Assembly (NCBI GenBank): GCA_025370845.1
Contig: JAMXFF010000013.1
Location: 1-64,000 of the forward strand
Reading direction: 5' to 3'
Source of the DNA: Laspinema palackyanum D2a
Lineage (GTDB): Bacteria; Cyanobacteriota; Cyanobacteriia; Cyanobacteriales; Laspinemataceae
DNA length: 64,000 nt
Under the pieces are notes generated by a model. It did no database searches and had not been told where the DNA came from. It saw only the letters and a program-made list of their open reading frames with translations. Below, in pieces: positions 13,156 through 45,752 of this stretch (the stretch's first letter is position 1; each line of letters starts with the position of its first letter). A program made the position numbers and the translations under genes.

Positions 13156-13494
13156 TCACTTCCCCATTTGACCGCATATTTCTTTATAAATTTCGTTCAT
13201 TTTTTGGATGACTTCCTGAGCTTTTTTTTGCTGTTCGGGATTATCATAAAATAAATCAGGATGCCATTTTTTTACTAAAGTTCGATAAGCTTGTTTCACC
13301 TCTTTCAGGGAAGCATTAGAGTTCAATCCGAGGATTTTGTAAAACCGAGCAATTTTATCGCTAACAGGTAGCGGGGGTGCTTGCGGACGGTGAGTGATCG
13401 CATCGGGAAGCGATCGCCAGTTCCTCTGTTTCAGTTTGGCTAATTCTGCATCCATTTCCAATGCCTGAAATTTGGCTTCCAACGGGTCAATCAT
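13156..13494 (-). CDS. Small J-domain protein
   Basis: The 112-aa protein ends in a J domain (about residues 48-110): FYKILGLNSNASLKEVKQAYRTLVKKWHPDLF with the HPD tripeptide needed to stimulate Hsp70 ATPase. There is no Gly/Phe region, zinc finger or client-binding C-domain, so it is a class III J protein; the N-terminal 45 residues are helical and charged. ATG at 13494 is preferred over an upstream TTG because of its spacing from AGGAG. It is the last gene of the dynamin-like operon (73-80 bp after the third GTPase, same strand), which suggests it brings DnaK to that system, perhaps to disassemble GTPase polymers. That role is inference. Confidence 0.85.
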   Translation of the reverse strand: MIDPLEAKFQALEMDAELAKLKQRNWRSLPDAITHRPQAPPLPVSDKIARFYKILGLNSNASLKEVKQAYRTLVKKWHPDLFYDNPEQQKKAQEVIQKMNEIYKEICGQMGK

Positions 13495-13573
13495 TCCCAA
13501 AATCTCCTGAGTTCAACTTCCCCCAAGGGGGTTAGCACATATCCAAACAGCACTCCCTCAACACCAAGTCGAT

Positions 13574-15244
13574 TCACTTCTCCTTCAAAGACTGTAAATC
13601 CTGAGTTAACGCCTCCAATACATTTTGTAAAAACTGGATTTGATGGCGCTTCGTGAGCATCTCCGATGAGGGCTTTTGGGGTTGAAATCGCATCACAGGC
13701 ATGGCGATTTCTTCATAGTCGCGCAGGGTCAAAAAAGCCCCTTCACTGAACCGCTTCAGATAGTCCTCCGCCGCTTTTTTATAGAGCGTTTGTAAATCAG
13801 GAGAGTTCACAGGAGTGGCAGGAGTGGCGGGGGTGGACGAATTGGGTTCAATAATTCGATTCAGGATATAATAAGCACTGCGAGCAACCGTATTGCCTAC
13901 AGGACTTTCTAATAGCCAATCCAAAGGAGTGTCCCCTGAGATAGCGGTGGGACGTTTTGGCGACTTAGGGGCAGAGGGAGTTTGAGGAACGGTGACAGAG
14001 GGAGGGTCAGGAAATTTTAGGGTTAATCTTCCCGGGTGGGGGTGGTTGAAAAACTCACAAGCTTTATTTACCCAACTGGTAATTTCTTGCTGATATTGAA
14101 CCATCGCCGGTTGAAAAGATTGGGTTTCCCAGGTGCGAAATTGCCCCTGTTGGAGTGCCGCGATCGCCTCCAGTTCATACCGCTTTAACAGATTTGGTAA
14201 ATACAGTTTACTTTGTAAATCAGAAACGCTCCCCTCAAAACCTTGTTTAATCAGTTTTTCTGCTTTTTGTTGCAACTGAATTTTATTCGCCTGTTTTTCT
14301 TCAGCAACGGCTAAATCAGTGTTCAACCCTTGAATTTTTGCCGTTAAAGACTGGCAGATTTGAGTGGCGATCGCCTCTAAGCGTGGCAACCAATTAGTAG
14401 TTTTTTCTTGATGAAATGCCACAATACTTTGCAGCGCCGATTCAAACATCGGCAGTCCCGTAGTCTGTGCTGCTGCCGCATCCCCTTTCAGTCTTGCTCT
14501 GAGGGCCGGTAAAGCATCAACCCGATACAAATTACTAATCCCCGGAGGCAAATTGGACCGAAAACTTTCCGCCACAAACCGCATTCGACTGGACACTTCT
14601 TTTTGGTCGTCCGGGTCCATTAAATTCATGAAATTGACCGCAAAAACCACCGTTTCAATCCCGCGATCGAGCAGCCAATCCCGGAGATTTTCCCGTTCTC
14701 CCAGGGTCATCAACTTACGAGCATCGAGTACCTGCACCACCAAATCTGCCGTTAACAGTTGATTTCTGACTAGATTATCCTGTTCTTCCCGGTCATTGGT
14801 TCCGGGCAAATCTAAAAATTCTACCCCAATTTGCAGGAAAGAATGAGGACAAAACACCTCAACCGCAGCAACATCATTTCGCATCCGCCGGTCCTGGTCT
14901 AAAATAGCATATTGCTTGAGGATAGCCGTCCCGAGATCGCTCATCACCTGTCCATCATTTAAGGTAATTTTAGCGCTCAATTCTTCCCCATATTTAACAT
15001 GAATTGCCGCCCCTGTCGTGGGAATCAAATCAATCGGTAAAGTCCGCTGTCCCAGCAAAGCATTGAGTAAAGTAGATTTGCCATAATTAAAAGGACCAAA
15101 AACCGCAATCCGAAAGACGGGATGTTCCAACGCTTCGCAAATTGTCAGGCTATCTTGATACAGGGGTAAACTTTTATCCAGTTCTAATGCCCCTAATGCT
15201 GCCCTGATATTCCTGACTACGTTTTGATAAACTTCCTGCTGCAT
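13574..15244 (-). CDS. Dynamin-like GTPase, short divergent type
   Basis: A GTPase of 556 aa from the ATG at 15244, which has GAGG seven bases before it; a TTG 21 bp upstream is possible but lacks that support. Motifs: P-loop GPFNYGKS, G2 Thr in IPTTGAA, G3 DLPGTND, and a degenerate G4 (VNFMNLMD instead of N/TKxD). Long helical stretches follow. Unlike the next two genes it has no long hydrophobic segment; near residue 440 a Pro/Thr-rich linker (TPATPATP) precedes the last helices. It is probably a soluble or peripheral partner of the two membrane-inserting GTPases upstream in the operon. Confidence 0.85.
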   Translation of the reverse strand: MQQEVYQNVVRNIRAALGALELDKSLPLYQDSLTICEALEHPVFRIAVFGPFNYGKSTLLNALLGQRTLPIDLIPTTGAAIHVKYGEELSAKITLNDGQVMSDLGTAILKQYAILDQDRRMRNDVAAVEVFCPHSFLQIGVEFLDLPGTNDREEQDNLVRNQLLTADLVVQVLDARKLMTLGERENLRDWLLDRGIETVVFAVNFMNLMDPDDQKEVSSRMRFVAESFRSNLPPGISNLYRVDALPALRARLKGDAAAAQTTGLPMFESALQSIVAFHQEKTTNWLPRLEAIATQICQSLTAKIQGLNTDLAVAEEKQANKIQLQQKAEKLIKQGFEGSVSDLQSKLYLPNLLKRYELEAIAALQQGQFRTWETQSFQPAMVQYQQEITSWVNKACEFFNHPHPGRLTLKFPDPPSVTVPQTPSAPKSPKRPTAISGDTPLDWLLESPVGNTVARSAYYILNRIIEPNSSTPATPATPVNSPDLQTLYKKAAEDYLKRFSEGAFLTLRDYEEIAMPVMRFQPQKPSSEMLTKRHQIQFLQNVLEALTQDLQSLKEK

Positions 15245-15340
15245 TTTTCTGCCTCGGGTTAACAATTTTAAGGAAATCTCTTGATTCCGGAGGGAGCTCT
15301 CCCCGGCCCTCTTAGGGAAGGGGCCGGGGTGTTAGATCTC

Positions 15341-17419
15341 TCAACCTACAGCAATCAGTAAATCCTGATATTCGGTCTCAATATTTCGCGCCTCCAAACT
15401 GACATCAGATTCTAACTTTCTGAGTCGTTCTAATTCACTACTCCGATTAATTTCATGGGATTGCTTTTGTGCCAGCAAATTATCTAATTCCGCTTGACGG
15501 GATTTGATATCATCATCAATGCGTTGAGTCACCTCACGGTCATAAGCATCAAAACACTCTTTAACCGCATCGTGAATCGGCTGCCACTGTTGATCAGCGA
15601 CTTGGGGCAGATATTTGACCAGTTCTTTTTTAGTCACTTTGACCACTTCTATGCGAGCGCGATCGGCCTGAAACAACCCCACGCCTAATCCCACCAGTGC
15701 TAAAGTAATTGGCCCTAAAATAATCCCAAACACGGTGGAAATTGCCGCACTAATTCCAATCACGGCTACCATATTTAACAGGATATTTTTCCAGTCGAAA
15801 CCGGCGCCCATGAGGGCGGCTCCTGCTAGATTGCCCGTGGCTAATGAAACTAATCCCATTGCCCAATTTGCCCAGGCGGGAGAGCTATCTTCCGGTAAAC
15901 TATTGCTACCGGCCTGGATTTTTTGTCCGGTGAGTTTTTCGGTAATTTTAGTGGTGACTTTGGTGTAGTCGGACCCGTACTGTGAGGCACTTTTGGCTAA
16001 TTGAATGAACGCCCCATTCATCTCTTGTTCGGCGGTGAGGCTCCAAGCGGATAATTTATCATTAATGTACTGCTCAAATGCCTGCCGGAATCGGGCTTCA
16101 AAGTTTTCTCGTTTGCCTTTGTCGATGAAGTCTCCAAATTTAATATCCGGTTGATAGGTTAAGAAATCACTTTCAAAGGTATTGCCTAAGTTGAGGACAT
16201 AAGTGCGGAATGAATGTGCGATCGCCCGCGCTTTGCTATCCCGAACCTGTTTGATTTCATCCTTGAAGCGATCGCGAATATTTGTTAAAGCCTTAAACTC
16301 CGGTTCAACGGAACTAATCCGCTGCTTCAACTCATTCACATCCCCATCCAGTAACGGAATCCGGCGGGCGATCGCCTCCCGCACTCGGGTGGAGGTTTGA
16401 CGCGCTAAAGTTCGCGCCTGCCGCAATTCAGAAACCGCTCGTTCCTGGGTTAAAAACGTATTCAGCGCCCCCAAAAAGTTGGAAAATCCCGTTCCCTCCA
16501 ACGAGGCGACTGCATCCTTAATCCGTCGTCTCAACGCTTGAATTGCTGAAATTTCAAACACCCGCTCCTCATAAATATCATGTCCATCTACCACACAATA
16601 TTCCGCTAAATTCGCCTTAAAAACTTGCCGCAATCGCGTCTCGGAATCCTGCAATTCTTCCTCATCATCCGGATCGATTAAACTCTCCCGCACCTGATCC
16701 CAAGCATTAATCAGAAAGAACACACTCAATCCCCGCCCCTTAATATAATTCTCCAGATAGCGGCGTTCTCCCAGGGTGCAAGGTTGTGATGCTCTCATCA
16801 CAAACAAAATCGCATGGCAATTGTTAATATACCCCAGCGACAATTCATTTCGAGATTCCGTATCATTCAGCCCTGGACTATCAACAATTTCTACCCCTTT
16901 TTGCAGTAGCGATAGCGGGTACTCTAACACCGCATAGTCTACATCGGGGAACGCTTGTTGCTGGTTCTGTTCCAGTTGTTTCGCTTCCGAGGGAGGGATA
17001 GTGTAGTTCTGTTTAAAACTCTTAAAATCTAGCTCTTGGGGACTTTTGCCATCCTTAAAATAGACCGTTACTTTCTTTTCCGGTCCGTAGCGCAACACGG
17101 TCAGCAGGGCAGTACAAGGGTTGACATCACTGGGTAAAATATTCTCTCCAATTAACGCATTGAGAAAGGTGCTTTTACCCCGCTTCATATCTCCCAAAAC
17201 CAGCAGCCGAAAGACCCCATGCCGTAAATTTTGACTGGCTTTTTGCGTATCTTCGATTTCTCGATCTAAGCCCAATTGCCCAGATTTTTTCGCCCCTGCT
17301 GTTTCAGATTCTTGCAAAATTTCGGCTATCTTGCTGAACGCATTAGCCACATCTGCTCGCACTTCGGCGACCCGCTCTAAATTAGTCAAAAAACTTTTGG
17401 TTTCCATTTTATAGCTCAT
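15341..17419 (-). CDS. Bacterial dynamin-like GTPase (membrane-associated), copy 2
   Basis: A 692-aa bacterial dynamin-like protein. GTPase motifs: P-loop GDMKRGKS (76-83), G2 NPCTALLT, G3 DSPG (180-183), G4 NAWD (238-241). Long helical stalk regions flank a hydrophobic segment at about 521-584 (starting MGLVSLATGN) that could act as the membrane-inserting paddle seen in bacterial dynamins. It ends in a charged coiled coil. It is very similar along its length to the 694-aa neighbour at 17535, including the first residues M-S/V-YKME, which supports the chosen starts. Members of this family bend, fuse or repair membranes, often as pairs that assemble together. It is 115 bp downstream of its paralogue, same strand. 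Confidence 0.92.
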   Translation of the reverse strand: MSYKMETKSFLTNLERVAEVRADVANAFSKIAEILQESETAGAKKSGQLGLDREIEDTQKASQNLRHGVFRLLVLGDMKRGKSTFLNALIGENILPSDVNPCTALLTVLRYGPEKKVTVYFKDGKSPQELDFKSFKQNYTIPPSEAKQLEQNQQQAFPDVDYAVLEYPLSLLQKGVEIVDSPGLNDTESRNELSLGYINNCHAILFVMRASQPCTLGERRYLENYIKGRGLSVFFLINAWDQVRESLIDPDDEEELQDSETRLRQVFKANLAEYCVVDGHDIYEERVFEISAIQALRRRIKDAVASLEGTGFSNFLGALNTFLTQERAVSELRQARTLARQTSTRVREAIARRIPLLDGDVNELKQRISSVEPEFKALTNIRDRFKDEIKQVRDSKARAIAHSFRTYVLNLGNTFESDFLTYQPDIKFGDFIDKGKRENFEARFRQAFEQYINDKLSAWSLTAEQEMNGAFIQLAKSASQYGSDYTKVTTKITEKLTGQKIQAGSNSLPEDSSPAWANWAMGLVSLATGNLAGAALMGAGFDWKNILLNMVAVIGISAAISTVFGIILGPITLALVGLGVGLFQADRARIEVVKVTKKELVKYLPQVADQQWQPIHDAVKECFDAYDREVTQRIDDDIKSRQAELDNLLAQKQSHEINRSSELERLRKLESDVSLEARNIETEYQDLLIAVG

Positions 17420-17534
17420 GCTGATTTAGGGTAATATCCATCAATAAAGTTGACCCAATTGTACTTCTGTTGTTTCCGGTTCGGGCCTGCAAACCAGACC
17501 CGGACAAAAAACGCGCAACCAATCCGATGCCATT

Positions 17535-19619
17535 TCAGGCATTGTATGAGATTAAGGACTCATAAACCCGGTTAACCGTCCGGCATTCTGAGATAAAGTC
17601 TGCCTCTAGTTTTTGCAGACGCTTTAACTCACTGTCTCGATTAATTTCTCGGGATTGCTTTTGTTGGAGCAAATTATCTAATTCCATCCGACGGGATTTG
17701 ATGTCATCATTCAGCCGGTTCATCACTTCACGCTCATAAGTATCAAAACACTCAGTAATCGCTTTATGAATGACTTTACCCTGTTCTTCCGCGATTTGAG
17801 GCAGATATTTAATCAGCTCTTTTTTCGTTGCCTTAATCAATTCTTTGCGACCTTGTTCTGCTTGCAATGCACCCACTCCTAATCCCACGAGCAGGATGCC
17901 TAGGGGCCCCGTCAACAGAACCGGAATGGAAAAAATGGCTAAAAAGCTATAGATACCAATCACCGATAGAGAGTTAACGAGAATGTTTTTCCAGTCGAAT
18001 CCCGCACTTGCTAAAAAGACGCCTGCGATGTTACCCGTTGCCAGGGAAACTAATCCCATTGCCCAACTCGCCCAGGTAGGAGAATTGTCTTCTGAATTAA
18101 AATCACTGCGGGTATAAATTTGTTGCCCGATTAATTTGTCAGTCATCGCCTGGGTGATGCGACTATAGGCTGAACCATACTCGGATGCTCGCTTGGCAAG
18201 TTGGGTAAAAGCCTCCTGCATTTCTTGGTTTGCAGTTTTTTCCCATGCGGTTATTTTATCATTAAGGTATTGTTCAAATGCCTGTTTGAAGGCGGCATTA
18301 AACGCTTCTCGTTTTCCTTGGTTTAAGGAGTCAAAAAAGCCTAAATCCGGTTGATACCGGGAAAAATCGGTGTCAAAGGTACTGCCCAGATTGAGAATGT
18401 AGGCGCGCAAGGACTCGGAAATCCCCCGCGCTTTCTGATCCCGGACGCTTCTAATTTCATCGGAGAAGCGATCGCGGATGTCATTGAGTTTCTCGAATTC
18501 CGGTTCTACGGAAGAAATCCGCGCTTTCAATTCGTTGACATCGCGATCAAGTAAAGGAATCCGACGGGCGATCGCCTCCCGAACGCGATCGGTACTCTGC
18601 CGCGCTAAAGTTCGCGCTTGCCGCATTTGAGCTACCGCTCTTTCTTCCGTCAAAAACTGATTAATCGCCCCCATAAACTCCGGAAATCCCGTCCCTTCTA
18701 AGGATTGCTCCGGGTCTTTCACTCGTCGCCGCAATGCCTGGAGTGAAGAAATTTCAAACACTCGTTCAGGATACAGATCATAGCCATCCACCTGGCAATA
18801 GTCGGCCAAATTGCTATGAAATACCTGCCGCAGTTTTTCCTCCGCTTCTTGGAGTTCCTCTCTATCCTCCGGGTCGATCAGTCCTTTTTTAATTTCATCC
18901 CAAGCATTAATCAGGAAGAAAACCGTTAATCCGCGCCCTTTGATATAATTATCCAAATAGCGGCGCTCCTCCAAAGTCACCGGCTGACCCGCACGGAGGA
19001 CAAACAAAATTCCATGACAGTTGTTGATATAATTCAGGGACATTTCATTCCGAGCTTCCGTATCATTCAGCCCCGGACTGTCTACAATTTCAATGCCCTT
19101 TTCCAGTAATGCTAAGGGATATTCAACCACGGCATAGTTCACATCAGGAAAGGCTAACTTTTTTTCCTGCTCTAGGGTCTTGGCTTCTTCTGGGTCAATG
19201 GTATAACGCTGCTTGAAGGTAGGAAAATCTAACCGTTCCGGGGGTTTGCCCTCTTTGAAGTAAACCGTCACCGTTTTCTGTTTTCCGTAGCGTAACACCG
19301 TGAGCAAGGCTGTACAGGGATTCACATCTGCCGGTAATAGGTTCTCTCCAATTAAGGCATTCAAGAAAGTGCTTTTCCCCCGCTTCATGTCCCCCAAAAC
19401 CAGCAGTCTAAACACCCCCTGCCGTAAATTCTTTGTGCCGAGGGTCAGATCCGCGATGTTGCTTTTTAATCCCAGTTTTCCCGAGGTTTCCTCCCCCTGG
19501 GATTCGTCAGTTTCTAACAAGTCAACCATCCGATCCAGACAGGCAGCTACCTCAAATCGGACTTGAGCCACACGCTCCAAATTGTTAAGAAAACTTGCGG
19601 CTTCCATTTTATAAACCAT
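17535..19619 (-). CDS. Bacterial dynamin-like GTPase (membrane-associated), copy 1
   Basis: A 694-aa paralogue of the gene at 15341, with the same architecture: P-loop GDMKRGKS (76-83), G2 NPCTALLT, G3 DSPGLND, G4 NAWD, helical stalk, hydrophobic paddle-like region (starting MGLVSLATGN, about 522-587) and charged C-terminal coiled coil. The start ATG has GAGG eight bases before it. It lies 11 bp downstream of the small coiled-coil membrane protein gene, so the two are almost certainly co-transcribed. Tandem duplication followed by divergence is likely and would fit a hetero-oligomeric GTPase. Confidence 0.92.
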   Translation of the reverse strand: MVYKMEAASFLNNLERVAQVRFEVAACLDRMVDLLETDESQGEETSGKLGLKSNIADLTLGTKNLRQGVFRLLVLGDMKRGKSTFLNALIGENLLPADVNPCTALLTVLRYGKQKTVTVYFKEGKPPERLDFPTFKQRYTIDPEEAKTLEQEKKLAFPDVNYAVVEYPLALLEKGIEIVDSPGLNDTEARNEMSLNYINNCHGILFVLRAGQPVTLEERRYLDNYIKGRGLTVFFLINAWDEIKKGLIDPEDREELQEAEEKLRQVFHSNLADYCQVDGYDLYPERVFEISSLQALRRRVKDPEQSLEGTGFPEFMGAINQFLTEERAVAQMRQARTLARQSTDRVREAIARRIPLLDRDVNELKARISSVEPEFEKLNDIRDRFSDEIRSVRDQKARGISESLRAYILNLGSTFDTDFSRYQPDLGFFDSLNQGKREAFNAAFKQAFEQYLNDKITAWEKTANQEMQEAFTQLAKRASEYGSAYSRITQAMTDKLIGQQIYTRSDFNSEDNSPTWASWAMGLVSLATGNIAGVFLASAGFDWKNILVNSLSVIGIYSFLAIFSIPVLLTGPLGILLVGLGVGALQAEQGRKELIKATKKELIKYLPQIAEEQGKVIHKAITECFDTYEREVMNRLNDDIKSRRMELDNLLQQKQSREINRDSELKRLQKLEADFISECRTVNRVYESLISYNA

Positions 19620-19630
19620 TGGTGTTGCCT

Positions 19631-19981
19631 CTATTTATTGGGTTTATCTGAACTAAAAAAAAGTTTGTAGCCGACCCAAGCGATCGCCCCAACAATTACC
19701 GCACTCGCCAGCATCGTTCCCACCCGAACAGCAGCGAAAACGACAACCACAACCAGGGCATACTTTCCTACCCGCTTGAGTTGTCTTCCCCAGCGTTGCA
19801 GCTTGGATTCAACAGGTTCCTCTTTAATGGTTTGATACAGCGGAGCTTCTGCTTTGTATAGGTCCATCTCCATTTCCCGCAGTCGTAGCGATCGCTCTCG
19901 CTCCGCAATTTCTCGTTCTCGCTCTGCGAGTTCCTTTTGCGGATTTTGTTTTTCTGAGTCTGGGTTGCGTTTGTCATTCAT
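19631..19981 (-). CDS. Small coiled-coil protein with two C-terminal membrane helices
   Basis: The 116-aa protein has a very charged N-half (ELAEREREIAERERSLRLRE, a likely coiled coil, about residues 17-45) and two closely spaced hydrophobic segments, YALVVVVVFAAVRVG and ASAVIVGAIAWVGYKLFF (about 74-108), ending in a short polar tail. No known family is recognised. It is the first gene of the dynamin-like operon, 11 bp before the first GTPase. It is a plausible membrane anchor or adaptor for the GTPases; this is inferred from position and structure only. The start has a GAAGAGAG ribosome binding site. Confidence 0.8.
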   Translation of the reverse strand: MNDKRNPDSEKQNPQKELAEREREIAERERSLRLREMEMDLYKAEAPLYQTIKEEPVESKLQRWGRQLKRVGKYALVVVVVFAAVRVGTMLASAVIVGAIAWVGYKLFFSSDKPNK

Positions 19982-20767: not shown

Positions 20768-22018
20768 CTATTTCATCGGGATTTCAATAATAAATTCGGC
20801 TCCCTGTCCTGGCGCACTCACACAACGTAATTGTCCCCCATGATTATCGGCGATAATTTGATGACTGATATATAATCCTAAGCCGGTGCCGGTACCAACG
20901 GGTTTGGTGGTATATAAGTATTCAAAAACTCGGGCCATTACTTCCTCACTCATCCCCGGACCGTTATCAGCAATCGAAATCGCCACCTGCTCGCCCTCAA
21001 TCGGGTAAGTGCGAATGCTGATAATATTGGGCTGGTTCTTCATCATTTCGGCCCAATCCCGTCCGACGCTGGCCTCATCTAGGGCATCAATAGCATTGGC
21101 AATTAAATTCATAAACACCTGATTCAGTTGTCCCGGATAGCAAATCACCGGCGACAATTCTGCATAGTCTTTTTTTACTTCAATAGAGGGTCTGACTTCA
21201 CTGGATTTTAATCGATGTTTTAAAATTAACAGAGTGCTATCGATGCCATCATGAATATTAAAGGGAATTTTCGTGGTCGTATCGGACCGGGAAAAGGTGC
21301 GTAATGAATTACTCAAATAACAGATGCGCTCACTGCCTTCTTTCATAGAGGCAATCACTTCGGGAACATCATTCACAATATATTCTAAGTCGATTTCGTG
21401 AATTTTCTCAGCAATATCTTCTCCGGGTTCGGGAAACTTGCCCTGATAAGACTGGATCAGTTCGATGAGTCCGTTCATGTAATCTTCGGCAATTTCAATA
21501 TTGCTCGCAATAAAACCCACGGGGTTATTAATTTCATGGGCTACCCCTGCCACTAATTGACCCAAGGCGGTCATTTTTTCATTTTGGATCATTTGAGTTT
21601 GAGCATCCAATAGTTTTTTCCGGTCTTCCCTGAGTTTTTGGACTTCACTTAAGGCTCGGTTGATGGTAATTTCTAAGTCTTCAAAATCAATGGGTTTAGT
21701 CAGGAAGTCAAAAGCCCCCCGATTCATGGCGGTTCTAATATTTTTCATATCGCTGTAGGCGGACACGACCACAGTTTCAATGCTAGAATCGAGTTCGCGG
21801 ATTTTTTCCAGTAAGGTTAGGCCATTCATTTGGGGCATATTAATATCGGTGATGGTCACCCGAATTTCGCCATCTGATTGTAAGGCTTCCAGGGCTTCTA
21901 CCCCATTTCCGGCAAAGATAAATTCATATTGTTCTGACCGAATCTGCTTGCGAAATTGCCTTCTAATTAATTTTTCAAAGGAAGGTTCATCATCTACAAA
22001 TAAAATTTTGAGTGGCAT
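20768..22018 (-). CDS. Hybrid receiver-histidine kinase
   Basis: The 416-aa protein has an N-terminal receiver domain (ILFVDDEP; phosphoacceptor Asp58 in TDINMPQ; Lys in FLTKPID), a short coiled coil, and a C-terminal histidine kinase: HisKA H-box GVAHEINNP (His161), N-box FMNLIANAIDAL, G1 DNGPGMSEE and G2 GTGTGLGLY. There is no membrane segment, so it is cytosolic. With the receiver ahead of the kinase it likely relays a signal from another kinase; the CHASE2 kinase gene ends 43 bp upstream on the same strand and is the obvious partner. No DNA-binding output is encoded here. Confidence 0.92.
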   Translation of the reverse strand: MPLKILFVDDEPSFEKLIRRQFRKQIRSEQYEFIFAGNGVEALEALQSDGEIRVTITDINMPQMNGLTLLEKIRELDSSIETVVVSAYSDMKNIRTAMNRGAFDFLTKPIDFEDLEITINRALSEVQKLREDRKKLLDAQTQMIQNEKMTALGQLVAGVAHEINNPVGFIASNIEIAEDYMNGLIELIQSYQGKFPEPGEDIAEKIHEIDLEYIVNDVPEVIASMKEGSERICYLSNSLRTFSRSDTTTKIPFNIHDGIDSTLLILKHRLKSSEVRPSIEVKKDYAELSPVICYPGQLNQVFMNLIANAIDALDEASVGRDWAEMMKNQPNIISIRTYPIEGEQVAISIADNGPGMSEEVMARVFEYLYTTKPVGTGTGLGLYISHQIIADNHGGQLRCVSAPGQGAEFIIEIPMK

Positions 22019-22060
22019 AGCTTACTCCGATTATAGGGGTTATAGGGGGAATTGAAGGGG

Positions 22061-24247
22061 TTAGTTAGAGGGGTTGGTTTGGGGTAAGATGATCATAAAT
22101 TCAGTATGTTCTCCGAGGTGGCTATTGACCTCTAGCTGTCCGCCATGCTGTCCCACGATGGTTTCATAAGTTAGAGATAAACCCAAACCGGTGCCTTCTC
22201 CCGTAGGTTTGGTGGTAAAAAAGGGATTAAAAATTTGATCCAGGATGTCCTCGGGAATCCCAGGACCATTATCTCGGATCCGGATTTCTACCCAGGGATC
22301 CCTGGCCGATTCGGTGGGGCGATCGCTGCTTGTACGGGTTTTTACTGTGAGGGTAGGACGATATCCATCGGGATCAGCTTGGTATTTCTCATACAGGGCG
22401 TAACAGGCGTTATTGACGAGATTCAGAAAGGCACGGCTCATATCCTGGGGTACAATATAGATCTCACTGATTGCTTCATCATAATCGGTTTCGATCGCAA
22501 TCGAAAAATTGGTGTCTTTATTCTGGTAACTGTGGTAGGCTAACTCAATGGCCTCACTTAAGATCGCATGAAGATTGACCCGCGATCGCTGACCTCGTTC
22601 GGCCTGAGAGAGCAGCAGCATTCCCTCAACAATTTTTTCTATTCTTTCTCCATGCTGTTTGATATCCACCACGCTATCTTTTAAGTCGGTCAAGGTCTCA
22701 TTCAGGTATTCTACATCTAAGTCTTCTAAATTCTCCCGAGGATTATCCAGTTCTTCTATCAGTTCTTCGGTTAAATCCACGGAAATCGAAGCAAAGTTAT
22801 TGACGAAATTGAGGGGATTTCTAATTTCATGAGCAATGCCTGCGGCCAGGGATCCCAAAGAAGCCAGTTTTTCCTGGGCAATCATTTGTTTTTGAGCCGC
22901 TTTTAACTGTTTGAGGGTGAGTTTAAGCTGTTGATTTTTATCTCGTAACTCCACTGTTCGCTGTTCGACTTTCACCTCTAAGGTGCGGGAATACTCTTCA
23001 ATTTGTTTATAGGACAACTGGAGGTTTTCCAAAAGCGTATAACCAATTGTGGCGATCGCTGACCCGATTAACGCTAACAACGGCGGAACCAGGGGAATCC
23101 ACCAACAGAGCCTAAACGCACTATAAACCGTCACGATTAACACCAAACTGGCCAAGGAAATCATCACCCCAGTCCGGGGAAAAGAGATATAGGGTAACCC
23201 TTTAATATCTCGCCACTGACAGGTAAATCCAGCCCCAACGACCCCCCACAGAAAAATCCACAGCCATTCTACCCCCTCGGAGGCGGTATGAAGCGCCAAT
23301 TCACCCTCTAGGGCCGCTGTAATCAGATGACTGGTCAGATTGGCATGAATTTCTATCCCCGCCATCGATTCGGGAATGCCCGATAAAGTATTACTATAAG
23401 GCGTTAAGGAAAAATCTTTCAGACTAATGGCCGTCGAACCAATTAACACGAGGCGATCGCGCATTAAATCCGGGGGAATTCGATTTTCTAACACATCCAT
23501 CAAAGAGATACTTTCAAAACTCCCCTGGGGTCCGCGATAATTTAACAAAATTTGATAGCCTTCATCGGATGCACGGACGTAACCCCCATCATAAGCACTA
23601 AAGGGGGAAAATACTGCTTTTCCTAATTCAATGCGAACCTCGTCCTTCATCTGGGGAGCAATCCCTTCTCCCTCCAGATAAATCATCGCCAACTTAAATG
23701 CCAAGCTAAAGACGAGTGTTCCCTCTTCATCGTTCAAATATAAAAACCCACGACGAATTTTATTATCCATATCCCAGGGAAAATCATTCGCCCCCACCTG
23801 ATCAAGGCCATTAAGAATGGGGGAGGGTGCAATTTCTGCTTGTTGTTGATTCCCCACCACTTTGCGAATTCCAATTAAATTCGGTGTCGTCTCAAACACC
23901 CTTTTTAATTCTTCATTGCCCGTTCCTACCGGCAAATCTCGATAGATATCTAAGCCGATCGCTTTCGGTTCCTGGGCCTTAATTTTCTCTAGTAATTCCG
24001 CTAAAACCTGATCCGGGATCGGCCAGGTTCCCAAAGTAGTCAAATCATTTTCATTAATTCCAATAATCAAAATCCGGGGGTCTGGGGGCTGCAGAGGCCG
24101 AAGTTGAAATAATAAATCCAGGGTTGATAATTCCAGTGCCTGTAATAACCCACTCATTCGCAGCAAAATCGTCAATCCCGCTACCGTCGGTGCGAGGATT
24201 GACACTCTGCGCCATTCCCAAATTTTTAGCTTAACCTTGGCCCACAT
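22061..24247 (-). CDS. CHASE2-domain sensor histidine kinase
   Basis: The 728-aa membrane sensor has an N-terminal membrane helix, an extracytoplasmic CHASE2 domain (typical pieces PPDPRILIIGINENDL and LIGSTAISLKD) up to about residue 310, three closely spaced helices (about 325-405), a coiled coil, and a histidine kinase: H-box GIAHEIRNPLNF, N-box LNLVNNACYAL, G1 DNGPGIPED and FFTTKPTGEGTGLGLS. CHASE2 is an extracellular sensor domain of unknown ligand, common in cyanobacteria. The gene lies between the CHAT exoprotein gene upstream and the receiver-kinase gene downstream, all minus strand. Confidence 0.93.
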   Translation of the reverse strand: MWAKVKLKIWEWRRVSILAPTVAGLTILLRMSGLLQALELSTLDLLFQLRPLQPPDPRILIIGINENDLTTLGTWPIPDQVLAELLEKIKAQEPKAIGLDIYRDLPVGTGNEELKRVFETTPNLIGIRKVVGNQQQAEIAPSPILNGLDQVGANDFPWDMDNKIRRGFLYLNDEEGTLVFSLAFKLAMIYLEGEGIAPQMKDEVRIELGKAVFSPFSAYDGGYVRASDEGYQILLNYRGPQGSFESISLMDVLENRIPPDLMRDRLVLIGSTAISLKDFSLTPYSNTLSGIPESMAGIEIHANLTSHLITAALEGELALHTASEGVEWLWIFLWGVVGAGFTCQWRDIKGLPYISFPRTGVMISLASLVLIVTVYSAFRLCWWIPLVPPLLALIGSAIATIGYTLLENLQLSYKQIEEYSRTLEVKVEQRTVELRDKNQQLKLTLKQLKAAQKQMIAQEKLASLGSLAAGIAHEIRNPLNFVNNFASISVDLTEELIEELDNPRENLEDLDVEYLNETLTDLKDSVVDIKQHGERIEKIVEGMLLLSQAERGQRSRVNLHAILSEAIELAYHSYQNKDTNFSIAIETDYDEAISEIYIVPQDMSRAFLNLVNNACYALYEKYQADPDGYRPTLTVKTRTSSDRPTESARDPWVEIRIRDNGPGIPEDILDQIFNPFFTTKPTGEGTGLGLSLTYETIVGQHGGQLEVNSHLGEHTEFMIILPQTNPSN

Positions 24248-24325: not shown

Positions 24326-27300
24326 CTACCAGGGACTGCCAATCATGGTAAAGCCAGCCCAATAATAGGGGTGTCTTAACTCGCGATTCCCGAGGCGCGA
24401 AAGCTCCGGTGGGAGTTCTACGTTTCCGAAGGACCCGACCAAGGCCCCATTTTCCAGATGCACGGTCCCGCCAATCATGGCGATTTGTGCTCTCCTCAAT
24501 GCCTCTGCCTTAATCGGGGCCGATCGCAAGTTTTGGTAAAACTCGCTCATCAGTCCCAAGGTCCCCGCATCATTGGCGTACCAAAGACTCGCGACGGCTG
24601 ATTTAACCCCGGCTTGCACGGCTAATCCAGCAAAGCCAAATTCGGCCTCTAAATCTCCGATCGCCGTGCGACAGGCGGACAGCACTAACAATTCTACGGG
24701 CGGATCGTTCCATTGTAACTGCTGCATCCGATCTAGGCGTAATTTTTCCCCCCATAACTGGAGGTAGGAGTTATCTCTTGCTCCTGAGTTAAATTGACCG
24801 TGGGTCGCTAGGTGAATGATCCCGAAGGGTTCTTGTCGGCGCAGCTCTTGCAATTTATCCAGGGTGACAGCTTCGTTTAAGAAGGCTGCACCGGGCCATA
24901 ATTGATTAACAATGGTGTCAATTTCCACCGGCACTGCCGGTAACGGATATTGGTCAGAAAATTCTGACAATCCCATTGCTAAGACTTCGGTACTTTTCCA
25001 GTTGCTATAACGAGCATCGGTTAAATACAGACTGGGAATTAAGGTGATGCTGTATTTTTCAACTAAAAACTGCTCCCCATCATGTAATGCGGCAATGGGC
25101 AGCATCCGCAATCCCGCATCCATACTAAAAATAGTCGTCTCAATTCCCAACCGTTTGAGGTCCGGTTCTAAGGGGGCAATGATCCATTGATAGAGTTGCT
25201 GGGCCGGGGCTAAATAACTGGTGGTGCGCCGCCTGGATACATTACCAATTTCTCCCTGCAAACGCTGCACTTCCTGCAACAAAACGGCTTGGTTGGCTTC
25301 AGGAACACTTTTGTAAATCGGTTTGCCGACGGGAGGGATTAAGACTAAATCTAATTGCTCATTTCGAGAAAAAACATAAATCAGACCGGCATTTTTACCC
25401 GTCAGGGTTTCCATATCCCGAAGTTTGTTCTGGATGGTCTCAAAGGATAAATAAGGCAGATTAATAGTCTGCCCTAAATATTCCTCAAAGTCCTCACTAA
25501 ACACGCGATCGCCCATTTCAATCGCCTGTTCTATTTGACCCGAATCTAGCAGGCTATCGAGGTCACTGCGATTGTTCAACTGGAGAATGGGCGGTTCACT
25601 CAAAACATCGGAAACAGCCTGTTCATTTCTTTGTTCGAGTCCCGGGGACCCCATAAACCGATCGCCCAGGGAGGGGGTCCAAGGATAGCCCGTTTCGGTC
25701 AAGGAGGGAACATTCATGAGCGCGGGCTCTGCCGGAACTGGAGTGGCGATCTCCGGTACAGGTAAGCCCGACCCACCCTGAATCCCCGGTCCTACCACCA
25801 TAGGAATCTGCGCGGGTTCCACCACGGGGGCCGGTTCTGACACCGGAATGGGGGCCGGTTCTGCTACAGGAATTGGGGCTGGTTCTGCTACAGGACTGGG
25901 GGCCGGTTCTGCTACAGGACTGGGGGCCGGTTCTGCTACAGGAATTGGGGCTGGTTCTGCTACAGGAATTGGGGCTGGTTCTGCTACAGGACTGGGGGCC
26001 GGTTCTGCTACAGGAATTGGGGCTGGTTCTGCTACCGGACTGGGCTCAGTGATGTCAGGTTCGGGAGAGGGCGGCTCACTTGCCTCACCCGTCTCGGGTT
26101 CTGGTGTACTCTGTGCCGAAGGCGGTAGTGGCAGGGGGTCAATTTTCGGGGCGGGTTTGATCACTGGAGTAAACAAGTTTTCCCCCTCTTCCGGGGATGG
26201 AGTGGGTTCAGGTTCTTCCGTCTCCGGCAGGGTCACATCTTCGATGTTAAAAGCACCGCTCGTCGTTCCCGTGGCGTTGGGGAGCTCAACGGTAACTTCC
26301 CCGGTATAATTGGAATAATCCAGGCGATCGCTCCCGGCTGCTCCATCAATGCGGCCAAACTGCGCCCCATCGAGAAACGCGAAGGTATCACTGGCACTGC
26401 CTCCGGTCAAGTTTTCAATATTTTCAAACCTCATGCCGTTGGGATAGCCGCTAAGAGTGCCTCGGCCAGGGCCGGTGAGAGTCCAGGTGGTATCTTGGTT
26501 CGGACCCGTGAGCGTCTGTCCACCGGCGATCGTCACCGGCGCATTAAAGTCAAATCCATTATATAAGGTTACATTTCCCGTACTATCGGATCTACCAATG
26601 ATAATCGAGCCAAAGCCATTTGTGAGGGCATTCAGCAGATTATCCCCTAATATCAAGGTGTCATTGGGTAAATTATTGTCCGTCGGTGCGATCGCCACAT
26701 TTCTACCTGCCGAACCCGGTTCTATGACCAATCGCCCGCGCCCGGTTGCGGAACTGTTGCCGGTTGCCTCAATTGCATCGGCTCTCACATTCAGATTATT
26801 GGTGTTGATGTTGCCTCGCAAGCGCAAGGTTCCCGTGCTGGCATCCAGGTTGATGGTTCCAGGGGTCGCATTAGAGTTCGTGGACAGGTCCTGGGTTGTG
26901 ATATCTCCACCCTCGGTATTCAGTTCGATTATCCCCCCATCTCCGGATCCGGAAGAGGCATCGATGGTCGCATTTCCCGTTTGGATAATGATGTTGCCAT
27001 CCCCGCCTGTGTTCAGACTAATCTCTCCCCCGGTTCCCTCCCCCTCGGAGTTAGCCAGGATCGTGCGGGTGGTAATATTCCCGGTTTCAGTGGTTAGGGT
27101 AATGTTTCCCCCATCCCCAGATACGGAAGAGGCATCTAAAATCCCGTTTCCTGTACCGATATCGATCGCCCCGGTCCCTCCCGCACTCAGGATAATATCC
27201 CCAGCCGTTCCTCCCCCATCAGATTTGGAGATCATCTCTCCCGTGGTAATATCCCCGGTTTGAGTCGTTAGGGTGATGGTTCCCCCATCTCCAGATGCCG

Positions 27301-29131
27301 AAGACGCATCTAAACTCCCGTTGCCGGTTTGGATAGTGATCGCCCCGGTTCCTCCCGCACTCAGGGTAATATCTCCCCCCGTCCCCGCACCTGTAGACTG
27401 GGAAATTAGCTGACGCGCTTCAATATTGCCATTGCTACTGGTGAGGGAGATATTTCCCCCATTCCCTTCTGCGGAGGTATCGATGGTGGTAACCGTGATA
27501 TTCGCTCCGAAAATATTAATCTCTCGCCCTTGAGCCAGGATCTGGCTGGATGCATTCATCAAAAAAGCGCCGGTTCCTTCGTTATCCGCATCCGCCCGAA
27601 ATACAATGGCTTCCCCGGGGACAAATTCGAGGGAAACACCATTGGCAATCTCAATATTATTAGTCGCTTCTAGGATGATATTGCCGATTTGATTTTGAAG
27701 CGTTTGGGCCGAAATTGTAATAGGTTCCCCGGCAAATTCATCGGATAAAATATTCGGCAGAAACTCCGCGATATTGGGTGGATTATCCTCATCATTAGAA
27801 ATGATAATATTCAAGGGGTCGAGGAGCAGGGTTCCGGAATTTCCGTGGGTGGCACTGACATCAACGATGCCTTCAAAAATCAGGTGTTCTTTGCCTGAAA
27901 CTTCTACAAATCCGCCATTTTGGGAGGGAGCAAAGGGGGTGGAACCTCCCCGGGCGCTAATGTTGCCATAGAATCCGGTGACGCGATCGCTCCAGACAAT
28001 GGCGCGTCCCCCATTCCCGGTACTCAGGGCATCCACTCGGATGGTGGAATCGGGACTGATTAAGGTGCGATCGGCAGTGGGCAATCGAGTCCCGCCTTGG
28101 AAATCCCCACCCAGATAGACTTCGCCTCCGCCATTGCCCCCAGAAGCATCAAGGGTTGAGGCGATCGCCCCAATTTTTTCCCCTAAAATCGTGACGGTCC
28201 CCCCAGTTTCCACCCCATCGGCAACGGAAATCTCACCGCTGACAAGGGTGGTTCCCGGATCGGGGGACCAGGATAAATTGGAACCGCTGAGGGTAATTGT
28301 TCCATCGGGATTCACTGCCGCACCTCGGGCGTGTCCCTGAGTGAGATTTCCTTCTGTGAGCAGTTGGGGTAATTGTAAGGCAGAAATTCCCGTTTCGGTG
28401 TTTGGGGCGATCGCCTGGAATTCCAGACTTAGCAGCATTCCTTCCTGAGACAACCGGACGCGATGGGGTCCGGGGACACTGGCGATGGTGATGTTGCCCC
28501 CTGGGGCGGTTAAGGTTCCCGTATTGAGGACGCTGCCCCCCATCAGGGTAATATTTTCCCCAAACTCGACGGTCAAATCTCCGGCATTGACAATACTCCC
28601 GGCCTGAGATTGAGTAAAATCAAACTGATTGGGGGACCCGGTGAGGCTGTGATAGGAAGAGGTCCCCAATACATCAAAACTCGCTCCTGAGTTAAATCCG
28701 AGCGAGTTTGCAGTGGTAGCAAAAAAGGACCCCGTGAGGTTTAACTGAGCGGTAGGACCGAACAGGATGCCTGCGGGGTTGATTAAATATAGATTGGAGT
28801 GGCTGCCGCTGACTTGCAGCAGACCCTGAATTAGAGAAGGGTTGCCCCCGACAACCCGAGTGAAGATATTCTGGATGTCGGGATTTGCCAGAAAGTTAGC
28901 AGTTTGACCCGCTTCTAAACCAAAGCGATCGAAACTGTGGAAGAGATTGGAGCCATCACCGGAGGGACTGCCCCCCTGGATATCAAAGCGATCGCCATCA
29001 TGGGTAACTTGGGTCCCGGTTCCATCCACAGCGGGAATCATCGATTGAGTTCGTCCCGCTTCTAGGAAAATGCCCCACCAACAAACTGCGGCCAATAGGG
29101 TACTTGGGCCAATTACCCATGATGACTTCAT
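24326..29131 (-). CDS. Secreted haemagglutinin-type exoprotein with C-terminal CHAT protease domain
   Basis: A 1601-aa protein from the ATG at 29131, seven bases after AGGAG and just past the upstream stop; an in-frame ATG 30 bp earlier lies inside the previous gene without such a site. Order: signal peptide; TPS/filamentous haemagglutinin secretion domain (VVGGNPSLIQGLLQVSG, LYLINPAGILFGP, about 30-300); long Gly/Thr/Asn-rich beta-helix with several 58-residue repeats (about 540-790); Pro-rich linker with eight AEPAP-I/S-PV octads (about 1070-1150); C-terminal CHAT caspase-like domain (about 1270-1601) with catalytic His in HLATHGQ (about 1444) and Cys in LSACRTA (about 1487). A secreted caspase-fold peptidase is expected; substrate unknown. 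No TpsB transporter is encoded in the window. Confidence 0.92.
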   Translation of the reverse strand: MKSSWVIGPSTLLAAVCWWGIFLEAGRTQSMIPAVDGTGTQVTHDGDRFDIQGGSPSGDGSNLFHSFDRFGLEAGQTANFLANPDIQNIFTRVVGGNPSLIQGLLQVSGSHSNLYLINPAGILFGPTAQLNLTGSFFATTANSLGFNSGASFDVLGTSSYHSLTGSPNQFDFTQSQAGSIVNAGDLTVEFGENITLMGGSVLNTGTLTAPGGNITIASVPGPHRVRLSQEGMLLSLEFQAIAPNTETGISALQLPQLLTEGNLTQGHARGAAVNPDGTITLSGSNLSWSPDPGTTLVSGEISVADGVETGGTVTILGEKIGAIASTLDASGGNGGGEVYLGGDFQGGTRLPTADRTLISPDSTIRVDALSTGNGGRAIVWSDRVTGFYGNISARGGSTPFAPSQNGGFVEVSGKEHLIFEGIVDVSATHGNSGTLLLDPLNIIISNDEDNPPNIAEFLPNILSDEFAGEPITISAQTLQNQIGNIILEATNNIEIANGVSLEFVPGEAIVFRADADNEGTGAFLMNASSQILAQGREINIFGANITVTTIDTSAEGNGGNISLTSSNGNIEARQLISQSTGAGTGGDITLSAGGTGAITIQTGNGSLDASSASGDGGTITLTTQTGDITTGEMISKSDGGGTAGDIILSAGGTGAIDIGTGNGILDASSVSGDGGNITLTTETGNITTRTILANSEGEGTGGEISLNTGGDGNIIIQTGNATIDASSGSGDGGIIELNTEGGDITTQDLSTNSNATPGTINLDASTGTLRLRGNINTNNLNVRADAIEATGNSSATGRGRLVIEPGSAGRNVAIAPTDNNLPNDTLILGDNLLNALTNGFGSIIIGRSDSTGNVTLYNGFDFNAPVTIAGGQTLTGPNQDTTWTLTGPGRGTLSGYPNGMRFENIENLTGGSASDTFAFLDGAQFGRIDGAAGSDRLDYSNYTGEVTVELPNATGTTSGAFNIEDVTLPETEEPEPTPSPEEGENLFTPVIKPAPKIDPLPLPPSAQSTPEPETGEASEPPSPEPDITEPSPVAEPAPIPVAEPAPSPVAEPAPIPVAEPAPIPVAEPAPSPVAEPAPSPVAEPAPIPVAEPAPIPVSEPAPVVEPAQIPMVVGPGIQGGSGLPVPEIATPVPAEPALMNVPSLTETGYPWTPSLGDRFMGSPGLEQRNEQAVSDVLSEPPILQLNNRSDLDSLLDSGQIEQAIEMGDRVFSEDFEEYLGQTINLPYLSFETIQNKLRDMETLTGKNAGLIYVFSRNEQLDLVLIPPVGKPIYKSVPEANQAVLLQEVQRLQGEIGNVSRRRTTSYLAPAQQLYQWIIAPLEPDLKRLGIETTIFSMDAGLRMLPIAALHDGEQFLVEKYSITLIPSLYLTDARYSNWKSTEVLAMGLSEFSDQYPLPAVPVEIDTIVNQLWPGAAFLNEAVTLDKLQELRRQEPFGIIHLATHGQFNSGARDNSYLQLWGEKLRLDRMQQLQWNDPPVELLVLSACRTAIGDLEAEFGFAGLAVQAGVKSAVASLWYANDAGTLGLMSEFYQNLRSAPIKAEALRRAQIAMIGGTVHLENGALVGSFGNVELPPELSRLGNRELRHPYYWAGFTMIGSPW
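25828..26045 (-). repeat. 24-bp coding tandem repeat (AEPAPIPV octads)
   Basis: About eight to nine copies of a 24-bp unit encode the Pro-rich spacer of the CHAT exoprotein, in two alternating versions (IPV and SPV). The near-identity of units at DNA level implies recent expansion or slippage. The length stays a multiple of three. Confidence 0.85.
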
Positions 29132-29135
29132 GCCC

Positions 29136-29930
29136 TTACTCCTGACTGATTTGAGTCGCATCTACAAGGGGTTCTGTTGCGAAGTCCCCCAATTCTACAG
29201 AATTAAGAAACTGTTGCCACCGGGCAAACAGGACGGTATCCTGGGGATTATCCCGGCGCATTTGAGCCAGAATGCTCAGAGCATCATGCCAAATCCCTTC
29301 CCGAGCATAGATGGAAACCCGGTTACTTGGGGTTGTGGCATTTTTGAGTTCTAAGGCGATGGTTTCATCCGGTTCCACTCGTTCGATCCAACCATCGACG
29401 ACAATATCTCCGGTGCGATCGTTCGCATCGCAGACCATTTTTAAGTACCAATGATAACTTTTCCCTGGATCCAGGGTAGTCGCATCATTCACAGGTAAAC
29501 TGTGACTAATAATCCCCCCTTGGGGAATTTGGATTTTGGCTTGGTAAACCACATTCTCCTCATTATCTCCCTCGACCAATTCAAACTCTAAGGTTTGGGG
29601 GCCTGATGTGGGGACATACCAGTACAACGTGGGATGCTCGGCCAAAGTCAAGGGCATGGCATCACCCGGAGTTAATGCGGTCAAAGGTTTTTGGCCCGCT
29701 TGATAGGTTCCACAGCCTCTGGTGCCGCCTTCTGCGGTCCGTTGGGGCGCACCGCGATCGGGAGGATTGAAAGATTGACTGAGTAACCAGGGACCAGCAG
29801 TCGCTGTAGAGAGGGAATCGGGTTCAGTTTGAGCCTTCGCCTGCAAATTCAGGCCCGGACCCATCACCAGTCCCAAACATACCGCCACTGAAAATGTGGT
29901 AACTTGTTTTAACGATTTGTTCCAAAGCAT
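29136..29930 (-). CDS. DUF928-family exported protein
   Basis: The 264-aa protein begins with a signal peptide (TTFSVAVCLGLVMGPGLNLQAKAQ) and carries the DUF928 pattern: FNPPDRGAPQRTAEGGTRGC near residue 55, LTALTPG, TLYWYVPTSG, EFELVEGD and DPGKSYHWYLKMVCD. Mature protein therefore lies outside the cytoplasmic membrane. DUF928 has no known biochemical role but is found in cyanobacteria beside CHAT/haemagglutinin and CHASE2 genes, as here: the CHAT exoprotein start codon lies 4 bp after this stop codon. Co-expression and perhaps translational coupling are very likely. Confidence 0.9.
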   Translation of the reverse strand: MLWNKSLKQVTTFSVAVCLGLVMGPGLNLQAKAQTEPDSLSTATAGPWLLSQSFNPPDRGAPQRTAEGGTRGCGTYQAGQKPLTALTPGDAMPLTLAEHPTLYWYVPTSGPQTLEFELVEGDNEENVVYQAKIQIPQGGIISHSLPVNDATTLDPGKSYHWYLKMVCDANDRTGDIVVDGWIERVEPDETIALELKNATTPSNRVSIYAREGIWHDALSILAQMRRDNPQDTVLFARWQQFLNSVELGDFATEPLVDATQISQE

Positions 29931-45690: not shown

Positions 45691-45735
45691 GGTGGAAAAA
45701 GCCCGACACTCTCAAGGGTGCGGCTATAGGGACTA

Positions 45736-45752
45736 AGCCCGCCTGCGCGGGC
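45736..45752 (+). terminator. Hairpin AGCCCGC/GCGGGCT downstream of argF
   Basis: AGCCCGC-CTGC-GCGGGCT-type stem without a T-run. The same module (GCCCGCCTGCGCGGGCTAAG) occurs at 51533, and a variant at 58229, so it may be a dispersed repeat used as a terminator. Confidence 0.5.

Follow-up and report, generated by a model that had tools for sequence, protein, structure and literature searches.

A BDLP-type dynamin gene cluster with a divergent dynamin-like protein and a J-domain protein in the cyanobacterium Laspinema palackyanum D2a

The gene cluster and its proposed function

A cluster of five genes of the cyanobacterium Laspinema palackyanum D2a was analyzed, which occupies positions 13156-19981 of a DNA stretch of 64,000 nucleotides (contig JAMXFF010000013.1 of assembly GCA_025370845.1, positions 1 to 64,000 of the forward strand; the whole stretch is called the window in the following). 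The genes encode a small membrane protein (TM), two dynamins (DLPa and DLPb), a divergent dynamin-like protein (DLPc) and a J-domain protein (J). The locus appears to represent the most complete form of a membrane-remodelling system of filamentous cyanobacteria that is built on the bacterial dynamin-like protein BDLP. DLPc would be the hetero-partner of BDLP, J would recruit Hsp70, and TM would be an anchor; the probability of this explanation as a whole is estimated to be about 0.5. The evidence computed here consists of family membership, gene order, co-occurrence, gene fusion, an intact HPD motif in J and an altered G4 motif in DLPc. The features of the cluster are:

19631 to 19981, minus strand: TM, 116 aa; N-terminal part helical and charged, with RER/RLRE motifs, followed by a hydrophobic stretch of about 40 residues
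17535 to 19619, minus strand: DLPa, 694 aa; Dynamin_N and PF21808, hydrophobic paddle region, G4 motif NAWD
15341 to 17419, minus strand: DLPb, 692 aa; second BDLP-family dynamin, 66% identical to DLPa
13574 to 15265, minus strand: DLPc, 563 aa; divergent dynamin-like protein, likely true start ATG at 15244
14624 to 14635, minus strand: G4 position of DLPc, residues 211-214, NFMN; Asp replaced by Asn, invariant in the compared sequences
13862 to 13918, minus strand: degraded hydrophobic segment of DLPc, residues 450-468, WLLESPVGNTVARSAYYIL; orthologues mostly of the Gly-rich GWLLGGPVGAAVVGG type
13156 to 13500, minus strand: J, stand-alone protein with a J domain; 114 aa with the TTG start, 112 aa with the ATG start at 13494
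13429 to 13479, minus strand: N-terminal helical motif of J, residues 8-24, EAKFQALEMDAELAKLK; common to the J part of DLPc-J fusions
13255 to 13263, minus strand: HPD tripeptide of J, residues 80-82

The five open reading frames (ORFs) are arranged head to tail, and the gaps in the order TM-DLPa-DLPb-DLPc-J are 11, 115, 75 and 73 nt. Five genes on one strand with short gaps had been claimed in a preliminary description of this DNA, made from the sequence alone, and this was verified with the ORF list of the window. The genome has a size of 7.4 Mb and is divided into 116 contigs. DLPc and J probably begin further downstream than the listed TTG codons, judged from the sequences, because the ATG codons at 15244 and 13494 agree better with the orthologues. 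For TM and the three dynamins dN/dS ratios of 0.05-0.20 were obtained in two comparisons per gene, with DLPb under the strongest purifying selection among the five (0.05).

DLPa and DLPb are BDLP-family dynamins

Since 2006 the BDLP of Nostoc has served as a structural model for the action of dynamins. By their sequences, DLPa and DLPb belong to this founding bacterial dynamin family (PDB 2j68). The Pfam family PF21808 (Dynamin-like_hel_bact, cut-off 28.3 bits) was matched with 594 bits by DLPa (E 2e-178) and with 614 bits by DLPb (E 2e-184), and Dynamin_N (cut-off 27) with 108 and 118 bits, respectively. The closest solved structure was the BDLP of Nostoc punctiforme, which was matched over the full length by both proteins (987 and 1047 bits). 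Their GTP motifs GKST, D.PGLND and NAWD are intact. The two had been noted as closely related dynamins with a hydrophobic segment, and the degree of identity as well as the highest hydropathy means over 19 residues, 2.31 for DLPa and 2.42 for DLPb, agree with that view.

DLPc co-occurs with BDLP and is encoded close to it

Two samples were used for comparisons. The first consisted of 120 genomes of the same order, which contained 41 strong DLPc orthologues (E < 1e-90); the stretches around 40 of them plus the window were annotated with profiles. The second was a scan of species genomes, from which the best 80 of 228 DLPc relatives were kept and annotated. Because the locus profiles were derived from members of the set to which they were applied, the matches of these members are given by construction.

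In the 120 genomes BDLP was found 42 times and DLPc 41 times; both were present in 41 genomes, DLPc alone in none, and neither in 78 (Fisher p 2e-31, uncorrected for relatedness). BDLP was counted above 300 bits to PF21808, which applied to 42 of the 45 genomes with any match and left out G002, G025 and G041 (76-80 bits). DLPc was counted at E < 1e-90 in 41 of 60 genomes with any match, and weaker matches were taken as other dynamins. Each of the two proteins occurred in 25 of 69 genera. At least eight families (f1, f2, f5, f11, f14, f19, f31 and f33) mix genomes with and without the pair, and BDLP and DLPc vary together in the legible genomes of mixed families, with an exception in f16 (family codes read by hand). 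The pair is also present where the genes are unlinked: genome G016, which consists of one contig, carries DLPc at 1.79 Mb, whereas BDLP is located at 3.60 Mb. As a control, the KGK family (PF08872) was found in 38 of the 42 BDLP genomes and in 57 of the 78 others, and thus the pairing in 41 of 42 genomes is not general to dynamin-linked families. In a wider draw from the phylum, 16 of 194 genomes contained DLPc (E up to 1e-60); one of them was of the same class, and the other 15, including that of the window, belonged to the same order. Because the co-occurrence is near-perfect, it is very probable that DLPc works with BDLP.

Gene order was counted in the 58 of 80 loci with 8 kb or more of upstream and 1 kb or more of downstream sequence; the other 22 were left out. 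BDLP was present in 46 of these well-flanked loci, and in 41 it lies on the strand of DLPc, at most 1.2 kb upstream of it. At least two BDLP ORFs were found in 12 loci, one of which (L154) has a broken gene that was counted twice. TM was present in 37 loci, each time together with BDLP. The full set TM-BDLP-BDLP-DLPc-J was seen only in the window, in six of the 80 loci (L084, L085, L086, L087, L089 from Oscillatoria sp. PCC 10802, and L090 from O. princeps), and in L034. Conservation of the five-gene order, which had been proposed as a check, therefore holds for the core and not for the complete set. That the neighbours are unrelated and adjacent by chance is scarcely credible: J and TM are dispensable and extra genes lie between the members in some relatives, but the co-occurrence in 41 of 42 genomes extends to unlinked genes, BDLP lies close upstream in 41 of 58 loci, and a gene fusion exists.

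DLPc represents a separate dynamin family

DLPc had been described as a third, divergent GTPase, and this is borne out by a match to Dynamin_N (E 7e-25) and the absence of PF21808, which was not among the Pfam matches up to E 0.1. It aligns to DLPa and DLPb over the GTPase region only, with 31-32% identity, and the phmmer match between DLPc and BDLP spans residues 38-305, essentially the same region. The AlphaFold model of DLPc had a mean predicted local distance difference test (pLDDT) value of 78 and a predicted template-modelling score (pTM) of 0.59. In a Foldseek search of this model against the PDB, BDLP came first (E 2e-17), ahead of IniA, the Cj-DLP pair and mitofusins. The template-modelling scores were only about 0.2-0.5, and the claim on the fold is therefore kept to membership in the dynamin superfamily. 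From its sequence, DLPc is assigned to a dynamin family separate from BDLP. Its nearest relatives among the best 80 of 228 are from strains deposited as Oscillatoria sp. and Laspinema.

The preliminary description had stated that the third GTPase lacks the hydrophobic segment. This is correct for the DLPc of the window, which has a 19-residue hydropathy mean of only 0.45 where the orthologues are hydrophobic, but it does not hold for the family: 90 of 105 distinct scorable DLPc sequences keep a segment with a mean of at least 1.3 near residues 435-475, mostly of the Gly-rich GWLLGGPVGAAVVGG type. Six of the remaining 15 lie between 1.0 and 1.3, and nine below 0.8, and the latter include every distinct sequence of the window's genus. 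The sequences thus indicate a lineage-specific loss. In this genus, the loss coincides with a separate J gene and two BDLP copies. A causal link is not drawn, because Oscillatoria PCC 10802 and O. princeps have both and yet keep the segment.

The nucleotide site of DLPc is altered

A joint alignment revealed that the G1 and G3 motifs of DLPc are intact. The G4 motif is NFxN, once NWMN, in all 106 distinct DLPc sequences, and the canonical N/TxxD was not encountered in any of them; all 95 distinct BDLP sequences have NxxD, and the change from Asp to Asn was found in none of the 95 (counts from alignments of distinct sequences). Compared to BDLP, the aligned examples of DLPc lack five residues behind G4. 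The G5 region is DALPALR in DLPc, and SS(I/L)QALR or similar in BDLP. In the phmmer alignment the Asp column is gapped in DLPc rather than aligned with the Asn, so that no Asp is present at this position under either alignment. NxxE-type relatives that use ATP exist, and G4 could be read instead as N214-x-x-D/E217. This reading was rejected: residue 217 is acidic in only 93 of 106 DLPc sequences, whereas N211 and N214 are invariant, and NFxN was therefore preferred.

Variants of Ras, EF-Tu and FtsY with an engineered Asp-to-Asn change at G4 are reported to prefer xanthine over guanine nucleotides; EngA has two GTPase domains, and the change had this effect in the first one only (PMC3466195; also PMC7952092). 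For SpoIVA, natural alterations of the G4 and G5 motifs are described to accompany the use of ATP (PMC7952092). By analogy with these proteins, the base specificity of DLPc has probably been changed or relaxed. A more far-reaching possibility is that DLPc, rewritten at the guanine site, does not recognize GTP as other dynamins do and has become a nucleotide-locked, relaxed or differently specific subunit, which would form an obligate hetero-assembly with BDLP; only BDLP would hydrolyse GTP, and ATP used by J-recruited Hsp70 would power the release. The features that led to this proposal are the Asp-to-Asn change, the aromatic residue after the first Asn, the gap of five residues and the different G5 region, and in this complete form it must be regarded as doubtful.

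The J-domain protein and its fusion to DLPc

J domains recruit Hsp70 through their HPD motif. DnaJ was the sole Pfam family above the cut-off for J (E 7e-14), and the HPD motif is intact, so that the earlier designation as a stand-alone J-domain protein could be retained. HPD was present in 26 of 26 J sequences above 60 bits in the scan of species genomes. Of the 21 Nostocales loci, 19 have a DLPc-J fusion; in the remaining two (L138 and L163) the ORF ends at the contig end or about 110 nt before it, and the J state was set to unknown. In the 58 well-flanked loci J was fused 19 times, present as a separate gene seven times, and absent 32 times. In a quick DLPc tree with 81 rows, 12 of them without a J state, a single change (branch support 100) suffices for the fused state, whereas two are needed for the separate state and three for all three states together; gain and loss are not separated by this tree. 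The fusion of J and DLPc in one clade is the best evidence that J acts with DLPc.

The separate and the fused J proteins have the N-terminal helical motif EAKFQALEMDAELAKLK in common. An AlphaFold model of one fusion (mean pLDDT 73, pTM 0.45) contains, in this order, the dynamin, a segment with very low confidence, the motif helix at residues 629-652, a second low-confidence stretch and the J domain at residues 677-744. Judged from the model, the fused J looks like it sits on a flexible tether. The locus of Chlorogloea (L147) has the order BDLP-DLPc-J, and the DLPc and J genes overlap by four bases. In the 120 genomes J was counted above 185 bits, which yielded seven genomes out of 69 with any match to the J profile; all seven contain DLPc, three of them as fusions, and the other matches (E up to 1e-14) had at most 106 bits. 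Seven further matches to J (E up to 0.01) are present in the window genome. Lineages that lack J must either manage without it or rely on a different J protein, and because J is absent from 32 of 58 loci, the recruitment of Hsp70 via this J is optional at best. Where J is present, it is likely to act on DLPc.

The fusion and the HPD motif are also compatible with a role in folding or assembly, in which Hsp70 would help DLPc or BDLP to fold or to load, with no disassembly. Hsp70 is also reported to aid the assembly of IM30 oligomers (PMC6882379). Nevertheless, this role is considered unlikely: 32 of 58 DLPc loci have no such J, so that folding does not generally need it, and the long low-confidence linker in the fusion model suits an action of J on neighbours as much as on itself. 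Alternatively, the J part could be an assembly or dimerization domain that couples DLPc to BDLP and does not involve Hsp70. This option has been raised for the Nostoc protein by analogy with the assembly domain of Cj-DLP1 (Liu et al. 2018, PMC6104087), and the conserved N-terminal motif would be a candidate docking helix. HPD, which pure docking would not require, is however kept in all 26 J sequences above 60 bits, and many lineages retain the pair without any J; coupling of this type is thus quite improbable.

The small membrane protein TM

A coiled-coil protein with two transmembrane segments had been reported as the first gene product, and the presence of a small membrane protein was confirmed, with a charged helical region that precedes about 40 hydrophobic residues. 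The highest 19-residue hydropathy mean is 2.27, and no Pfam family was matched above its cut-off. The hydrophobic part is possibly a two-helix hairpin, judged from its length and sequence. TM was counted above 100 bits, and weaker hits exist, e.g., in G018 and G068. It was found in 27 of the 120 genomes, 25 of which have BDLP. Distances were determined for 32 of the 41 hits (at least 64 bits; the nine with at most 42 bits were left out), and 25 of these 32 have a BDLP gene on the same strand and lie at most about 1 kb upstream of it.

Two TM homologues with 137-139 bits were found at C1:78042-78359 of G062 and C25:4256-4588 of G118, both in genomes that have neither BDLP nor DLPc at the thresholds used, and the TM family may thus have another partner. 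In 9 of 41 loci (e.g., L037:7333-7872, L038:10616-11164 and L051:6739-7302), a gene upstream of DLPc or BDLP encodes a further membrane protein (cluster c3), which has about 180 aa and several hydrophobic stretches. It is present in 16 of the 120 genomes, 14 of them with DLPc, and was not found in the window genome; one member was checked against Pfam and had no match. It is possibly an alternative membrane component.

A putative mechanism and its weighing

Taken together, a scheme can be proposed for the five proteins. DLPa and DLPb would be the membrane-inserting dynamins of the tube-forming BDLP family. DLPc would probably join or cap the BDLP assembly and control its nucleotide cycle. In lineages that keep J, this protein would bring Hsp70 (DnaK) and its ATP to the assembly and most likely disassemble or reset it. 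TM, which travels with BDLP, would probably anchor it in the membrane or mark its site. The preliminary description had suggested anchoring by the small protein and disassembly with Hsp70, and both would fit this scheme; we also infer physical binding between the proteins, the direction in which Hsp70 acts, and the roles of TM and of the nucleotide site of DLPc.

For BDLP alone, an assembly-stimulated GTPase activity is reported not to have been detected, which leaves room for a partner (PMC2862293). The same report describes that BDLP with GDP binds liposomes inefficiently, and because of this GTP hydrolysis is thought to release BDLP from the membrane (PMC2862293). Its cellular role in Nostoc has been described as open (PMC5827413). 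An analogous case is the HSP70-CDJ2-CGE1 system, which is reported to take apart VIPP1/IM30 rods with ATP, and for which the DnaK of Escherichia coli can stand in for HSP70 (PMC6882379). A release or reset driven by Hsp70 is favoured because of this parallel, the co-occurring DLPc and the J that bears HPD. On this analogy, the chances that Hsp70 disassembles or recycles a BDLP-DLPc assembly fall a little short of even.

Several observations weigh against the proposed system. One genome, G066 (71% complete, family f16), has BDLP without DLPc. J is missing in 32 of the 58 well-flanked loci, and J proteins occur without DLPc: G014 encodes a J of 109 aa with the same N-terminal motif (L172:9531-9860), and G045 a J with a doubled N-terminal motif beside a shortened c3 membrane gene (L173:8835-9811); the arrangement in G045 looks like a remnant of this system. 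The dN/dS ratios of J were 0.25 and 0.54 in two comparisons, and the latter indicates weak selection. TM above 100 bits is missing from 17 of the 42 BDLP genomes and present in two without BDLP. The loci L034 and L035 of the window's genus have an additional same-strand gene between DLPb and DLPc. The earlier view could be upheld for a dynamin set in conserved order with a J domain, but not for the complete five-gene set, in view of the few loci that have it, the loci without J and the extra gene. In addition, promoter-like and terminator-like sites were no commoner than in shuffled sequences (13 versus 10.7 +/- 3.2 and 11 versus 9.9 +/- 3.0, respectively), and because these counts lie within the range of the shuffles, a single transcript is not claimed for the five genes.

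The set might alternatively be a defence against phages or membrane damage of the Leo or DynA kind. The PADLOC models LeoA, LeoB and LeoC match weakly (up to 57 bits, in a library that gives no cut-off), DynA of Bacillus subtilis is cited in connection with phage defence in the SynDLP paper (PMC10104851), and the distribution of the pair is patchy. However, the NCBIfam LeoA scores were only 14.7 bits for DLPa and 23.9 bits for DLPb, compared to a cut-off of 325, and none was listed for DLPc, so that an assignment to LeoABC was rejected. The loci L044, L048, L049 and L054 of family f2 keep the same flanking genes (c12 to c15), unlike a shifting defence island, an argument that was made without a scan of the flanks for defence genes and that is specific for this family, as other lineages have differing flanks. 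No PHROG family was matched by TM, DLPa or DLPc, and J matches four via its J domain. A defence function is therefore considered very unlikely, and a membrane-remodelling system built on BDLP is the preferred explanation.

If DLPc were a near-obligate partner of BDLP, the missing activity of BDLP would be directly testable with two or three proteins, and DLPc may be the partner that has been lacking from the in vitro work on the best-studied bacterial dynamin. A dynamin with an invariant NxxN would be a test of how far a dynamin G-domain can drift from GTP, and a dynamin and a J domain in one gene would be a simple bacterial case of Hsp70 that acts on a dynamin coat.

Neighbouring genes and other observations

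A gene pair for a response-regulator/histidine-kinase hybrid and a CHASE2 histidine kinase (20768-24247, minus strand) is located 786 nt upstream of the cluster on the same strand; among the 41 fetched stretches the two kinase genes adjoin the cluster only in the window's genus. Another gene of the window encodes a protein of 1611 aa (24326-29161, minus strand) with a TPS secretion domain, a C-terminal CHAT domain and a repeated VAEPAPIP stretch in between. In three related genomes, tandem genes for probably secreted leucine-rich-repeat proteins of the NQISDLKPLSSLTNLT type lie between BDLP and DLPc (L039:2929-8712, L040 and L042). The sole Rfam match in the window, CRISPR-DR28 at 45731-45754, had 35 bits, exactly the gathering score; no repeat array was found around it in 45000-46600, and it was taken as a chance match.

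Comparison with known systems

DLPa and DLPb resemble BDLP of Nostoc (BDLP1, NosDLP; PDB 2j68, 2j69, 2w6d) in full-length homology, intact G motifs, PF21808 and the hydrophobic paddle region. They differ in that the window contains two consecutive BDLP genes and J as a separate gene. The Nostoc locus L144 has the order TM-BDLP-DLPc fused to J, and its BDLP is near-identical to 2j68 (1484 bits).

The preliminary description had stated that no system with this set had been described, which was too strong. The gene beside BDLP1 is reported, in a single sentence, to encode a dynamin (B2IZD2) with a DnaJ-like C-terminus that may bind DnaK and may aid dimerization with BDLP1 (Liu, Noel and Low 2018, PMC6104087). 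By position and architecture, B2IZD2 would be the fused form of the pair that is split into two genes in the window. The DLPc-J architecture beside BDLP was found in Nostoc loci including L144; N. punctiforme itself lies outside the sampled loci. The passages of PMC6104087 that deal with B2IZD2 contain no data on conservation, co-occurrence, G4 or TM, and the accession was not found in any other of the open-licence papers searched. Tandem cyanobacterial dynamins have also been described, with NosDLP as Tandem B beside a Tandem A dynamin, together with a separate clade of chaperone dynamins that adjoin a protein with a DnaK domain (Jilly et al. 2018, PMC5827413). Tandem A may correspond to DLPc; the term J-domain does not occur in the main text of that article. 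No further description of this set was recognized among the open-licence papers on bacterial dynamins that were searched, judged mostly by titles and the beginnings of abstracts.

Cj-DLP1 and Cj-DLP2 of Campylobacter jejuni (5owv, 5oxf) are also two different dynamins that are encoded side by side, and their chains match the DLPc model with Foldseek E values of 1e-13 to 3e-9. The sequence matches are confined to the GTPase-domain regions, and J and TM are additional in the window. In comparison with this heterotypic pair, the pairing of BDLP and DLPc was seen at the level of the genes. The HSP70-CDJ2-CGE1 system resembles the proposed one in that a J-protein brings Hsp70 to a membrane-remodelling polymer (PMC6882379); the VIPP1/IM30 polymer is ESCRT-III-like and not a dynamin, whereas J is encoded together with a dynamin in the window and fused to one elsewhere. 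A system of this kind is already known, and new, as far as the literature was searched, are the co-occurrence of BDLP and DLPc, the split and fused forms of J, TM, and the invariant exchange of Asp for Asn in the G4 motif.

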